A stretch of 64,000 nt of DNA from Pantoea nemavictus (lineage in GTDB: Bacteria; Pseudomonadota; Gammaproteobacteria; Enterobacterales; Enterobacteriaceae): assembly GCF_037479095.1 (NCBI RefSeq), contig NZ_JBBGZW010000001.1:310001-374000 (forward strand). The letters run 5' to 3'. Below are positions 3,401 to 6,750 of the stretch, in pieces. How positions within the stretch are numbered: position 1 is the first letter of the stretch; each line of letters opens with the position of its first letter. Below the pieces are notes generated by a model. That model was not told the DNA's origin. It did no database searches and was given only the letters and a program-made list of their open reading frames with translations. The position numbers and the translations under genes are program-made.

Positions 3401-4389
3401 CACAGGATAGCAAAGAGTGGAACAGCGGCACCTTTATCAAGCCAACCTTGATTGAGCTGGATAAGGTAAGCGATCTGGATAAAGAGGTGTTTGGCCCGGT
3501 GCTGCACGTGGTGCGTTTCTCGCGCAGCACGCTGCCGCAGCTGGTTGAGCAGATTAATGCCTCGGGTTACGGCCTGACGCTCGGCGTACATACGCGCATT
3601 GATGAAACCATCGCGCAGGTGACAGCGAACGCCAAAGTCGGCAACCTCTACGTCAACCGTAATATGGTCGGCGCGGTGGTCGGCGTGCAGCCGTTCGGCG
3701 GCGAAGGCTTGTCCGGTACCGGGCCGAAAGCCGGTGGTCCGCTCTATCTCTATCGCCTGTTGGCCAATCGTCCAGACGGTGCGCTGCGCATCACCTTTGA
3801 TCGCCAGGATGCTGAGCGTCCGGTCGACAGCTCGGTGCGTGCGGAACTGATGCGCGCGCATCAGGCGCTGCAGCAGTGGGCAAAAGATAAACCTGAACTG
3901 CTGGCGCTGTGCCAGCGTTACGACGAGCTGGCGCAGGCCGGCACCGTGCGTCTGCTGCCGGGTCCAACCGGTGAACGCAATACCTTCACCCTGCTGCCGC
4001 GCGAACATGTGCTGTGCATGGCAGATAATGAAGAGGATGCGCTGGTCCAGCTGGCGGCAGTGACCAGCGTCGGCAGCCAGGCGCTATGGCAGGATGATGA
4101 ACTGCATCGTGCGCTGCGCCAGTCGTTACCGGCGGAGGTGCAGGCGCACGTCAAGCTGGTGAAGGATGCGCTGGCGGCCGAGTTTGATGCGGTAATTTAT
4201 CACGGTGATGCCGACCAACTGCGCAGCCTGTGCGAGCAGGTGGCAGCACGCGATGGCGCGATTGTCTCGGTGCAGGGCTTCGCGCGCGGTGAAACCAATC
4301 TGCTGCTGGAGCGTTTGTTGATTGAGCGTTCGCTGAGTGTCAATACCGCCGCAGCGGGCGGTAATGCGAGTTTGATGACTATCGGTTGA
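445..4389 (+). CDS. putA: PutA: proline dehydrogenase / P5C dehydrogenase / put repressor
   Basis: Trifunctional protein of 1314 residues that oxidises proline to glutamate with FAD then NAD, peripherally bound at the inner membrane, and represses put genes when not reduced. The N-terminal ribbon-helix-helix is residues 1-47 (TTMGVKLDEATRDRI), the proline dehydrogenase barrel about 260-570 (VKGAYWDSEIK), and the aldehyde dehydrogenase about 640-1130 with catalytic Glu879 (ETGG) and Cys913 (GQRCS). The reading frame is open further upstream, but the start is placed at ATG 445 because it matches the usual N-terminus and follows AGGACGAGGA at a good distance. Length is close to the E. coli protein (1320). 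Operator motifs lie just upstream. Identity is very secure. Confidence 0.98.
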   Translation: MASTTMGVKLDEATRDRIKLAAQKLDRTSHWLIKQAIFNYLEQLEAGESVPEIPQLLIDAAGDEGVPEEALQPFLDFAEHILPQSVSRSAITAAWRRPETDAVPMLLEQARLPAPLAEKTHQLAYSLADKLRHQKGATGRAGMVQSLLQEFSLSSQEGVALMCLAEALLRIPDKPTRDALIRDKISNGNWQSHLGRSPSMFVNAATWGLLFTGRLVSTHNEANLSRSLNRIIGKSGEPLIRKGVDMAMRLMGEQFVTGETIAEALANARKLEEKGFRYSYDMLGEAALTASDAKAYLVSYQQAIHAIGKASNGRGIYEGPGISIKLSALHPRYSRAQYERVMDELYPILKSLTLLARSYDIGINIDAEEADRLELSLDLLEKLCFEPELEGWNGIGFVIQAYQKRCPFVIDSLIDLAQRSRRRLMIRLVKGAYWDSEIKRAQIDGLEGYPVYTRKVYTDISYLACARKLLAVPNLIYPQFATHNAHTLAAIYQLAGNNYYPGQYEFQCLHGMGEPLYEQVVGKVADGKLNRPCRIYAPVGTHETLLAYLVRRLLENGANTSFVNRIADNTLPLDELVADPVAAVEKMGIAEGAIGLPHPKIPLPRDLYGAKRANSAGLDLANEHRLASLSSALLNSASQPWIAQPLVEGELGAGVSRPVLNPAAPADVVGSVRDASEAEVSDALDAAVNAGPIWFATPPQERAAILERAAEAMEGQMQQLIGLLVREAGKTYNNAIAEVREAVDFLYYYAGMVRDDFDNETHRPLGPVVCISPWNFPLAIFTGQIAAALAAGNSVLAKPAEQTPLIAAQAVQIMLDAGVPAGVLQLLPGQGETVGAQLTGDERVRGVMFTGSTAVATLLQRNLAGRLDPQGRPTPLIAETGGMNAMIVDSSALTEQVVVDIVASAFDSAGQRCSALRLLCVQDDVADHTLKMLRGAMAECRMGNPERLSTDIGPVIDAEAKANIERHIQALRNKGFNVYQAAQENPQDSKEWNSGTFIKPTLIELDKVSDLDKEVFGPVLHVVRFSRSTLPQLVEQINASGYGLTLGVHTRIDETIAQVTANAKVGNLYVNRNMVGAVVGVQPFGGEGLSGTGPKAGGPLYLYRLLANRPDGALRITFDRQDAERPVDSSVRAELMRAHQALQQWAKDKPELLALCQRYDELAQAGTVRLLPGPTGERNTFTLLPREHVLCMADNEEDALVQLAAVTSVGSQALWQDDELHRALRQSLPAEVQAHVKLVKDALAAEFDAVIYHGDADQLRSLCEQVAARDGAIVSVQGFARGETNLLLERLLIERSLSVNTAAAGGNASLMTIG

Positions 4390-4390
4390 T

Positions 4391-4411
4391 AGCGCAATAA
4401 ATTGCGCCGCT
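4391..4411. repeat. Left half of palindromic repeat split by the IS
   Basis: AGCGCAATAAATTGCGCCGCT is one half of the composite palindrome that is intact at 10861-10900. It directly follows the putA stop codon. The other half resumes beyond the IS, after a short spacer starting ACAGTATG. Joining the halves through a shared CT restores the consensus end TTGCGCCGCTAC, so the insertion point is read as the CT at 4410-4411. Confidence 0.75.
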
Positions 4412-4424
4412 TGTATCTTGAATG

Positions 4425-4593
4425 TGTTGCTGGTTAGCTACCAGCAACATGAAACGGAGGCAGCTTTTTGCGCCGCTTAAGACCCGATCTTGCTTCGTAG
4501 CTTTAAGCCCTCCGTTTCTCCTTTCACGCCAGCAACTACTCTGAACGGTAACCAGAAGCTCTGACTTCGTATGTACAAGGCTAGATGGCGTGA
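4425..4593 (+). ncRNA. Putative bridge (seek) RNA of the IS110 element
   Basis: Three consecutive foldable units fill the noncoding left end. First is a perfect hairpin (TGTTGCTGGT / ACCAGCAACA, 4425-4449). Second is a 10 bp stem GAAACGGAGG / CCTCCGTTTC (4451-4460 / 4509-4518) enclosing a 48-base loop. Third is a stem TCACGCC / GGCGTGA (4524-4530 / 4587-4593) enclosing a second loop. Loop one contains TTGCGCCGCTT (4468), identical to the genomic target at 4402, and TCGTAG (4495), complementary to CTACGA of the intact repeat. Loop two contains ACGGTA (4545), matching the right end of the element, and TACAAG (4574), complementary to the left end CTTGTA. This is the layout known for IS621-type bridge RNAs; function is inferred. 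Confidence 0.75.
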
Positions 4594-4619
4594 TGGTTTA
4601 AGTGAAAGGGAGATATCCG

Positions 4620-5603
4620 ATGTTCTGTCTTGGTATTGATGTCAGCAAAAACAAACTCGACCTCTGCCTGTTCCCCGGCAACGGCAAAAAGAAAACGAAA
4701 TCCATCAAAAATCAGGTCGGCGTAGAACGTGACATCTGCGACTGGCTCCAGAAGCAGAAGTGCCCGCCAGAGCAGGTGATGGTGGTGATGGAAGCGACCA
4801 GCGTCTATCACGAAAACGTCGCTTACGGGCTGCACGGGAACACGCCCGTGACGGTCTGTATCGGCAATCCGCAACGGGTCAGGGAGTTTGCCCGCGGAAT
4901 GGGTATCCTGACCAAAAATGACGCGGTCGACGCCTGGGTGCTGGCCCGTTACGGCGAGCTGAAACAGCCCGATGCCTGGGTTCCGCCGCCACCGGAAGTC
5001 CGCAAGCTGAAAGACCTGCTGCGTCTGCGTGACGCCATCGTTGAAGATGTGCAGCGCGCGACGAACAGGCTCGAGAAGGCGAACTCAACCCAGACGGCGG
5101 GCGAGGTGACCGACTCGCTTGAAAGAACAAAAAAATCGCATGAAAAGGAGCTGAAGCGAATAAACGCGCTGATTGACGACCACATGGATAAGAATGATGG
5201 TCTGAAAGATGATCTTAAGCTGCTGGAGTCGATAAAAGGTATCGGCGGCGTAGTGGGAACGACCATGCTGTCGGTGCTGCGTACGTGCCAGTTCCGCAAT
5301 GCGGGTCAGGTAGCGGCGTGGCTGGGCGTGGTGCCGGTCGAGAAGACGTCAGGCAGTTCGGTGAGAGGGCTGGCCCGGATGTCGAAAACCGGTCCCGCCG
5401 ACGTGAGAGCGAAGCTGTATATGGCCGCGATAGTAGCGGCAAGGTGGAATCGCCCCGTAAGAGCGCTGTATGAAAGGCTGATGGCGAAGGGCAAGCCAGC
5501 CAAAGTGGCGCTGGGAGCGGTGATGCGCAAACTGGTCCATCTCTGCTTCGGTGTGCTTAAAACACGAGAGCCGTGGAACGAAAACTACGTAGCTACCGCT
5601 TGA
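4620..5603 (+). CDS. IS110-family DEDD transposase
   Basis: A 327-residue recombinase. The N-terminal RuvC-like DEDD domain shows D7 (GIDVSK), E58 (VMEAT), D101 and D104 (NDAVDAWVLARYGEL). The C-terminal Transposase_20 domain has GIGGVVGTTMLS, then the SGSS segment (244-247) that carries the family's catalytic serine, then LYMAAIVAARW. A coiled stretch lies between (about 140-190). The ATG at 4620 follows GGGAG with 7 bases spacing; an upstream in-frame GTG has no better signal. All catalytic residues are present, so the element may be active. Members of this family are directed by an RNA encoded in the noncoding end of the same element. Confidence 0.93.
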   Translation: MFCLGIDVSKNKLDLCLFPGNGKKKTKSIKNQVGVERDICDWLQKQKCPPEQVMVVMEATSVYHENVAYGLHGNTPVTVCIGNPQRVREFARGMGILTKNDAVDAWVLARYGELKQPDAWVPPPPEVRKLKDLLRLRDAIVEDVQRATNRLEKANSTQTAGEVTDSLERTKKSHEKELKRINALIDDHMDKNDGLKDDLKLLESIKGIGGVVGTTMLSVLRTCQFRNAGQVAAWLGVVPVEKTSGSSVRGLARMSKTGPADVRAKLYMAAIVAARWNRPVRALYERLMAKGKPAKVALGAVMRKLVHLCFGVLKTREPWNENYVATA

Positions 5604-5639
5604 CGTTCAAGACGGTAGCTACAGTATGTGCACGTTTTT

Positions 5640-5662
5640 GTAGCGGCGCGATTCATCACGCG
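5640..5662. repeat. Right half of palindromic repeat split by the IS
   Basis: GTAGCGGCGCGATT followed by CATCACGCG is the partner arm of the composite palindrome, slightly degenerate compared with 10861-10900. A 17-base spacer separates it from the IS core CT. It lies just beyond the 3' end of the acyltransferase gene on the other strand. Confidence 0.7.
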
Positions 5663-5667
5663 AATTT

Positions 5668-6750
5668 CTAAGCCACAGACTTCTTCCGCTTCAAGCCAAT
5701 CAGCGTTGGGAACACAAACAGCGACTGACCCAATCCACGATTAGTAACCTGCCATACCGCGACCGAACACAGCGAGCAGATCCCGACGATCGCCAGCGGA
5801 TAGAAACATGCCCACAGAATCGAGAACCACGCCTGCTCAAACAGGTGATGACGCTGCGCAAACAGAATCGCTGACATGCCGAAGAACTCAATGAAGATGC
5901 GATGAATCACGTAGATTTGCAGCGTGTTGCGCCCTACCCAATTTAAGTAACTCATCTTGAAATGCGCGTTCAGCCAGCGACACGCGGCTACGCTGCCCAG
6001 CACCGCGAGAATGCACAGGAACAGACTCTTATCCAGGCCAAAGATAACGTGCAAACCGGAGAGCGCCGCCAATATGGCCCACGGCACAATGTTTTCGCGA
6101 CGCCATTCGCTCAGGCGCAACATCATTGGGCTCCAGAAAGCGCCCAGCAGGAAGTACAGGAAATACTGCGCCACGCTTTGTGGTCCCCAGAACGGGATAA
6201 TCTTCTCTACCGCCAGATAGTTGAGCGCAATCGCGACGACCAGCAAGGCCACCTTCTGCTGTTTAAAGATTTTCGCGCACAGGAAATAGAGCGCTAAACC
6301 ATAGAGATACCACGAGGTGCTCATGGCGAGGAACGTAAGCTTAAGAAACTCCAGCAGCGAACCGGCGTACGCCGCATTCAGGTTCTGCGAAATACGCTGC
6401 CCGGTGATCTCCGTAGAGATGCCGACAATCGACCACCACTGAATAAAGCCCCACAGAATGTAGAGATAAAACAGATTGGTAATACGGCTGGTAAATACCT
6501 GTTTCCACGGGCGATGCAAAATTCCGTTGGTGGCGAGTAAGCCGGAAACAAAGAAAAATGCCGGCATACGTAGCGGCGATAAAACCGTATTAAACTGCAC
6601 CCATATTTCTGCCGGGATCCACCCAGCCGTCAATAATTTTACCGTCCCTTCGAATCCCGGTAAGACGGTGTGATACAACACCACCAGTAATATGCACGCT
6701 CCTTTTAGAGTATTTATCCATGCAATATCTTCTTTTCTGGCGTTATTCAT
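5668..6750 (-). CDS. YcfT-like membrane acyltransferase (family 3), copy 1
   Basis: A 360-residue polytopic protein of the acyltransferase-3 family with about ten hydrophobic segments. Family traits are WINTLKGACILLVVLYHT at the N-terminus (the His of the first helix), the FRMP-like motif PLRMPAFFFVSG, SWYLYGLALYF, and IYVIHRIFIEF near the C-terminus. It resembles E. coli YcfT throughout. Such proteins acylate envelope glycans; the substrate here is unknown. The start at 6750 is preferred over one 69 bases upstream because it follows GGAG and matches the paralogue's N-terminus. It is a paralogue of the next gene in the same orientation. Confidence 0.85.
   Translation of the reverse strand: MNNARKEDIAWINTLKGACILLVVLYHTVLPGFEGTVKLLTAGWIPAEIWVQFNTVLSPLRMPAFFFVSGLLATNGILHRPWKQVFTSRITNLFYLYILWGFIQWWSIVGISTEITGQRISQNLNAAYAGSLLEFLKLTFLAMSTSWYLYGLALYFLCAKIFKQQKVALLVVAIALNYLAVEKIIPFWGPQSVAQYFLYFLLGAFWSPMMLRLSEWRRENIVPWAILAALSGLHVIFGLDKSLFLCILAVLGSVAACRWLNAHFKMSYLNWVGRNTLQIYVIHRIFIEFFGMSAILFAQRHHLFEQAWFSILWACFYPLAIVGICSLCSVAVWQVTNRGLGQSLFVFPTLIGLKRKKSVA

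Follow-up and report, generated by a model that had tools for sequence, protein, structure and literature searches.

An IS110-family element in Pantoea nemavictus with a predicted bridge RNA whose guides match a REP-like host repeat

Bridge RNAs (or seekRNAs), the targeting of REP sequences by IS110 elements and natural redirection of such elements are already published (PMC11208160; PMC11187229; PMC1525189). For IS621 of Escherichia coli, Durrant et al. report a junction promoter and an RNA of 177 nt (PMC11208160). Titles and abstract openings of 14 papers on IS110, Pantoea and REP contained no description of the element considered here, which lies near the left end of the window (the whole 64,000-nt stretch of DNA that was analysed).

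The element occupies positions 4410-5618, 1,209 bp with one CT core counted, and sits in a genome of 5.19 Mb in two contigs. Its neighbours, named from a reading of their open reading frames, are a gene resembling putA, which ends at 4389, and an acyltransferase-like one at 5668. Flank DNA from contig 2 has matches in Pantoea plasmids alone (8 of 8 records, the best at 85% over the whole query), which makes Pantoea the probable host. The only gene of the element is the transposase gene (tnp), and the main parts are:

4410 to 5618, + strand: IS110-family element with one core copy, present as ten full copies; ends set by the flanks of all copies and by the unoccupied L006 site
4410 to 4411, + strand: left CT core, from the copy flanks and the single CT in the L006 empty site
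4620 to 5603, + strand: IS110 transposase, 327 aa from its ATG, with matches to PF01548, PF02371, NF033542 and the IS621 and ISCro4 chains
5619 to 5620, + strand: right CT core, from the window sequence and the copy flanks

Both PF01548 and PF02371 are above cut-off in the transposase (Pfam), the NCBIfam model NF033542, 'IS110 family RNA-guided transposase', scores 218 bits against a cut-off of 140, and the PDB sequence matches are IS621 and ISCro4 chains at E values of about 1e-49. Residues D7, E58, D101, D104 and S244 align with D11, E60, D102, D105 and S241 of IS621, which are named as its catalytic residues in PMC11208158; the numbering was mapped by hand. The left end is long, with 208 nt from the core to the tnp start, and carries the RNA, and the right end is short, with 15 nt from the tnp stop to the right core. 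As in the IS110 group, the core is short, there is no target duplication and the empty site is precise, the last at one site only. Elements of the IS1111 group have their RNA downstream of tnp and subterminal repeats of 7-17 bp; the upstream position of the RNA and the right end of 15 nt do not fit that group.

The genome contains ten full copies that are 99-100% identical, together with one 26-bp right-end fragment. The RNA gene is the same in all ten, three other copies match the window copy at every one of 1,203 bp, and tnp is open in all five of the ten copies that were scored. A megablast search of the element against plasmids gave no match. The element is a complete, probably recently active insertion sequence of the IS110 group, and is a fresh member of an established RNA-guided family that is unusually well supported by its own genome. 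We note that there are 14 differences between copy L010 (G000:C2:261846-263048) and the window copy, every one of them inside 5044-5150 in window numbering, a cluster that suggests gene conversion by a divergent element. A 10-bp inverted repeat, GTAGCTACCG/CGGTAGCTAC, at 5589-5598 and 5613-5622 encloses the -35 box described below, and its right arm (5613-5622) runs into the host right target; among five right ends compared, it is partly present in L042-L044 and absent from L051 and L056.

The sequences at the insertion site are as follows:

4402 to 4409, + strand: left target TTGCGCCG in the REP-like host repeat, identical in nine of ten copies and different at the first base in one
5621 to 5626, + strand: right target ACAGTA in the host repeat, from the window sequence and the copy flanks
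5640 to 5651, - strand: opposite arm of the host repeat, TCGCGCCGCTAC, from the genome-wide repeat search

All ten left flanks end in (T/G)TGCGCCG-CT (nine with T, one with G), giving nine sites of the form TTGCGCCG-CT-AC and one of the form GTGCGCCG-CT-AC, and all ten right flanks start with AC, the longer sequence being CTACGA in three, CTACGG in four and CTACAG in three. The alignment of copies with their flanks that an earlier note on this DNA had proposed thus places all ten at the same kind of site, and none at an unrelated one. As judged by eye from 60 printed sites, the insertions lie in arms of an inverted repeat, GCGCAATAAATTGCGCCGCTAC, and an arm often faces one of type GCGCGATAAATCGCGCCGCTAC. 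Sites without the element number 105 for TTGCGCCGCTAC and 103 for TCGCGCCGCTAC, making 208 REP-like arms that by eye often form inverted pairs, and the reversed patterns occur 10 and 9 times. C-type arms contain none of the ten insertions (Fisher p = 0.0018 against the 105 and 103 empty sites), as the T at position -7 of the guide predicts, although a U-G wobble is possible there. GA follows CTAC in only five of 30 examined empty sites (of the 105), and a preference for G at the third base of the right target is not significant (7/10 versus 15/30 examined empty sites, p = 0.46). The host genome amounts to a natural specificity assay: next to the ten insertions it offers 105 empty sites that match and 103 that differ by one base.

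REP elements can have their own Y1 transposase (RAYT, PF01797). There is no match to PF01797 in the genome, and the target is therefore named REP-like only; its description as a classical REP with a resident Y1 transposase is not supported.

A draft genome of the same species, in which a search for full copies of the element found none, has the L006 site unoccupied, with 357 of 360 positions identical in an ungapped alignment and a single CT, so that insertion at this site was precise and without duplication. Among 30 genomes of the genus, 29 gave alignments with the left flank of the window copy, where long matches extend little beyond putA outside its own genome; no empty site of this copy was found, and the repeat is absent behind putA at L123-L126, of which L123 is of the same species. 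The query for an empty site of L001 led to a place that holds a different repeat. In the same species, loci L220 (the place of L001) and L123 (that of the window copy) have another repeat family, of the GTAGGG/GGTGCGC type, which points to turnover of the repeats. At one and the same place, the element's own genome (L011) and a same-species genome with no full copy detected (L229) both have a solo right end, TTGACGTTCAAGACGGTAGCT, which is probably the remnant of an older insertion.

The long left end contains a predicted structured RNA:

4422 to 4604, + strand: predicted bridge RNA, with a model match at 4422-4599, exact 5' and 3' ends predicted and a fold z-score of -3.47
4424 to 4450, + strand: 5' stem-loop of the bridge RNA in the fold, with compensatory change in 6/6 pairs
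4451 to 4518, + strand: target-binding loop with enclosing and inner stems (helices 2-4 of the fold), with compensatory change in 15/16 pairs

The strand at 4423-4604 folds at -63.9 kcal/mol compared with a shuffle mean of -49.1 (none of 200 shuffles is as low), and the predicted fold and the covariance analysis agree on a bridge RNA architecture of a 5' stem-loop and two loops with paired stems. When trained on 21 relatives, with this element and its 64%-identical relative L042 excluded, a covariance model places the RNA at 4422-4599 with 148.5 bits (E = 8e-42); the next and only other match in the 64 kb reaches 7.6 bits (E = 0.6), and the nine other copies score the same as this one. The same model gives only 22-26 bits at three IS621/ISCro4-like loci and no match in the more distant L060, and no Rfam family reaches its gathering score within the window. 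Across 33 aligned elements, this one included and L195 left out beforehand, the structure comprises six helices with 29 pairs; of the 955 pair cells 93.6% are formed, and 28 of the 29 pairs show compensatory change. None of 500 shuffles reaches any of the five structure measures, and sliding the partner leaves pairing at 52% or less. The hairpin and two stem-enclosed loops described in the earlier note are borne out by the fold and by the 28 compensated pairs, and the structure is conserved among relatives, with covariation over the 33 elements. The covariance-model search that the note had suggested finds the RNA with the element itself held out, and together with the Pfam, NCBIfam and PDB matches this upholds its identification of an IS110 element with a readable bridge RNA; every sequence that it quoted is in place in the window.

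Two segments of the first loop can be read as target guides:

4468 to 4477, + strand: left target guide TTGCGCCGCT, matching target and core at 10/10 positions (0/20,000 permutations, 34 elements)
4495 to 4500, + strand: right target guide TCGTAG, with CTAC paired in 10/10 copies and all six positions, wobble included, in 7/10

The sequence TTGCGCCGCTT at 4402-4412 recurs inside loop one, and the identity that had been noted between the guide and the left target at 4402 extends over ten of ten bases, core included. None of the 33 other RNAs reaches 10 for this 8-nt target plus core. The relatives in these comparisons come from 80 candidate loci, of which 58 were used as hand-picked matches that reach the protein start (L189 and L201, which also start at residue 1, were left out), and from 20 further regions, of which 14 entered the tests; those excluded were L056 (match from residue 85), L057, L058, L060 and L061 (distant) and L059 (misoriented). 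L164 and L175 have no left end and L147, L148 and L156 no usable left target, and with an RNA alignment score of 0.85 as the limit the resulting 77 elements, which include the ten own-genome copies, collapse to 34. Seven of the 34 have no right end found within the search and are missing from the donor and promoter counts, and L050, with a doubtful right end 165 bp downstream, is missing from the right-target and handshake counts.

With a probe of the flanking 8 nt plus core, and a scan blind to structure over the RNA minus its first 15 and last 20 nt, the 34 elements match their own left target at a mean of 8.29 of 10 positions, compared with 6.64 under permutation (0/20,000). The best match is at RNA positions 54-63, on the 5' side of the first loop, in 29 of the 34, and lies outside the target loop in L048, L143, L155, L166 and L205, which count against the reading. 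For the right target, core plus four bases match at 5.14 of 6 positions in the own RNA and 4.23 in those of other elements (0/20,000, n = 28, with the scan limited to RNA positions 60-130 and with L168 and L182 added by hand). Rewired right targets are seen in L051, L168 and L182, where a guide of TGAG or AAGAG accompanies a flank of CTCA or CTCTT, and relatives with other targets carry matching guides. Since the RNAs of the 34 elements match their own left targets better than those of others, guides and targets have changed together, and the clade constitutes a set of naturally retargeted guides. As this case shows, raw sequence can be enough for a correct reading of a bridge RNA and its target, which comparison then confirms.

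TCGTAG is present at 4495-4500 as the earlier note had it, but the CTACGA to which it was said to be complementary occurs at only three of the ten copies. The window copy reads CTACAG instead, which matches the guide only at CTAC and by one wobble, with a mismatch, so that the right guide is imperfect for this copy; because of this right target, its best match is elsewhere in the scanned RNA (5/8 at position 125), which is evidence against the reading. Self-avoidance, whereby the guide gene copies the target without the right target and the element would thus be spared by its own RNA, is not separable from structure; the own right-target dinucleotide follows the guide gene in two of 25 elements, L045 and L051, both with CA instead of CT at the core. 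In L200 (Methylomonas fluvii) the DNA just upstream of the left end is the bridge-RNA gene of the element itself, interrupted within the donor loop at GACC-CT, and the right flank starts with the ordinary AC, an arrangement that, going by its sequence, is self-directed or aberrant recombination.

The donor guides and the handshake bases are located as follows:

4501 to 4502, + strand: CT, the target-loop handshake bases, which complement the donor AG before the core
4545 to 4550, + strand: left donor guide ACGGTA, matching 5612-5617, with the next base mismatched
4574 to 4579, + strand: right donor guide TACAAG, complementary to CTTGTA at 4410-4415
5612 to 5618, + strand: left donor ACGGTAG at the right end, from the window sequence and donor comparison

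Loop two therefore holds the two guides that had been read in it, ACGGTA matching the right end and TACAAG complementing the left, and both match the circle junction. That the pairings meet at a CT core is true of the target side, where the left guide runs through the core, but the donor side is not clean: the guide reads ACGGTA-A-CC against a donor of ACGGTA-G-CT, with mismatches at -1 and at the second core base. A mismatch between the left donor guide and the donor base before the core is found in 18 of 25 elements, this one included. In the handshake model set out in PMC11208158, strand exchange is followed by pairing of donor position 7 with the base next after the right-target guide. The target-loop handshake base complements donor -1 in 24 of 25 elements, among them every one of the 18 whose donor guide is mismatched (permuted mean 54%, 0/20,000, a statistic that ignores the kinship of the elements), and 25 of 33 elements have a donor-loop handshake base that is complementary to target -1 (permuted mean 59%, p = 0.0036, with kinship likewise ignored); the left targets of L138 and L186 were shifted by one base by hand for these counts. 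The second handshake positions give no signal (p = 0.14 and 0.98), and in the window element the donor-loop handshake bases are GC (the G at 4580), neither of which pairs with the target base before the core, a point against the reading. The target-loop handshake base can pair with the element's own target in four of 33 elements, that of the window among them with C facing the target G, and pairing of this kind trapped IS621 before exchange (PMC11208158). In many cases, then, it is the handshake base and not the element's own donor guide that agrees with the donor base before the core, which bears on the design of bridge recombinases.

Joining of the right and left ends would bring together two promoter-like boxes:

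5600 to 5605, + strand: TTGACG, -35-like box of the promoter predicted at the circle junction; it overlaps the tnp stop codon
4414 to 4419, + strand: -10-like box TATCTT, 17 bp from TTGACG across the right-left junction

The joined ends would read TTGACG-17-TATCTT, and TTGAC is exactly 17 bp from the -10 box in 21 of 26 relatives. The junction scores 9 of 12, one more than the top pair of either integrated flank (8), and this is not significant alone (239 of 2,000 mononucleotide shuffles reach 9); support for the promoter therefore comes from positional conservation and not from the score. The earlier statement that everything needed is visible in 210 bases passes over the right end, which is the source of the -35 box and of the left donor. 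At seven of the ten copies (L001-L004, L006, L007 and L009) the longest stop-free upstream frame is co-directional with the element and ends 25-102 bp before it, and read-through could thus transcribe the RNA in the integrated state.

The segment between the two loops can pair with a region just upstream of tnp:

4518 to 4527, + strand: linker CTCCTTTCAC between the two loops, of which 4519-4527 can pair with 4602-4610
4602 to 4610, + strand: tnp ribosome-binding region GTGAAAGGG, pairing in silico with 4519-4527 at probabilities of 0.41-0.68

This pairing is possible in all 14 enterobacterial members (grouped by hand), with duplex energies of -12.5 to -16.9 kcal/mol that 0 to 6.7% of 300 linker shuffles each equal, and in folds of the full leader the ribosome-binding bases are paired at a probability of at least 0.5 in 11 members, while the other three, L050, L138 and L186, show 0.12-0.23. 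Covariation of the linker as an anti-ribosome-binding site was rejected, own pairs being no better than swapped ones among the 14 enterobacterial elements (p = 0.99). The other 19 elements give no signal (p = 0.34), the p value of 0.0003 over all elements reflects the difference between the two hand-made groups, and shared descent alone may therefore explain the linker pairing. A tentative and rather unlikely scenario, based on the modelled pairing, is that in the enterobacterial branch the linker doubles as an anti-ribosome-binding site, such that in read-through transcripts 4519-4527 would fold on 4602-4610 and lower tnp translation, and the circle-derived bridge RNA would end before or within the partner and be free to guide; the shorter RNA might also act in trans on tnp mRNA. 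If true, one short RNA would both aim the element and limit it. The leader structure of ISPpu9 likely includes its ribosome-binding site, according to PMC8450116, and a term search of two papers, PMC11208160 and PMC11208158, returned no passage on a translational role of the bridge-RNA linker.

We conclude, with a probability of about 0.94, that this is an IS110-group element with a bridge RNA whose loops pair with the host TTGCGCCG-CT-AC and with the circle junction, and whose transposase recombines the two at CT. The anatomy of the element, the uniformity of its targets, the covariation of guides with targets and of the structure itself, and one empty site are the observations behind this reading. 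An excised circle would join the right and left ends at CT and so form the promoter TTGACG-17 bp-TATCTT, from which a bridge RNA of about 180 nt would be transcribed. The first loop would then pair with both strands of TTGCGCCG-CT-AC, one arm of the REP-like inverted repeat, and the second with the circle junction ACGGTAG-CT-TGTA, and the RuvC-like/serine transposase would recombine target and junction at CT without target duplication. Here the circle, the expression of the RNA, its complex with the protein and the strand chemistry are carried over by analogy from published work on IS621 and ISEc21.

Two other accounts deserve consideration. The transposase protein itself might read the REP-like repeat, with the upstream RNA acting only as a structured leader that regulates tnp translation, much as tnp of the REP-targeting ISPpu9 is regulated by a structure in the 5'-UTR and by two small RNAs (PMC8450116), and the linker described above could indeed pair with the tnp ribosome-binding site. 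However, protein recognition alone does not predict that target and loop covary across 34 elements with different targets, and the guides keep their positions in a loop whose stems are maintained by compensation, so that this explanation is highly improbable. We likewise give very little credence to a decayed element in which RNA and guides are relics and the ten copies spread otherwise, for example by segmental duplication. Older copies have decayed, as the solo right end common to this and the same-species genome indicates, but the ten identical RNA genes, the three copies without difference, the open tnp in five of ten copies scored, the different flanks of the copies and the exact empty site for L006 all argue against decay of the present element.

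Read as a bridge-RNA element, it shares with IS621, as described in PMC11208160 and PMC11208158, a DEDD and serine transposase, a long left end, a 5' stem-loop with two guide loops, a CT core, a REP target, a circle-junction promoter (predicted here) and a handshake base beside the right target guide. It differs in its transposase, which is 38% identical to that of the ISCro4/IS621-like copy L057, in its REP-like target, TTGCGCCG, and in a left donor guide that is mismatched at -1. ISCro4 (PDB 9t56) is the closest solved structure by sequence (E = 7.7e-50), with IS621 practically as near (1.6e-49), and the left target at L057 and L058, the ISCro4-like loci that were examined, is TATC(A/C)GGC-CT. 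The ISEc21 seekRNA system (PMC11187229) is similarly of IS110 type with an upstream noncoding RNA that matches both target strands and a junction promoter (predicted in the present element), and the ISEc21 relative ISMch6 provides a case of natural redirection; ISEc21 targets an IS3-family gene, whereas the element described here targets a REP-like repeat. Its own clade, found in Enterobacterales and other bacteria, has transposases of 49-64% identity in eight nearer aligned examples and shares the RNA architecture and a near-constant donor loop, with members that carry matching guides for targets as different as TATCCACC-CT, AACTATC-CT and CAGACAC-CT.
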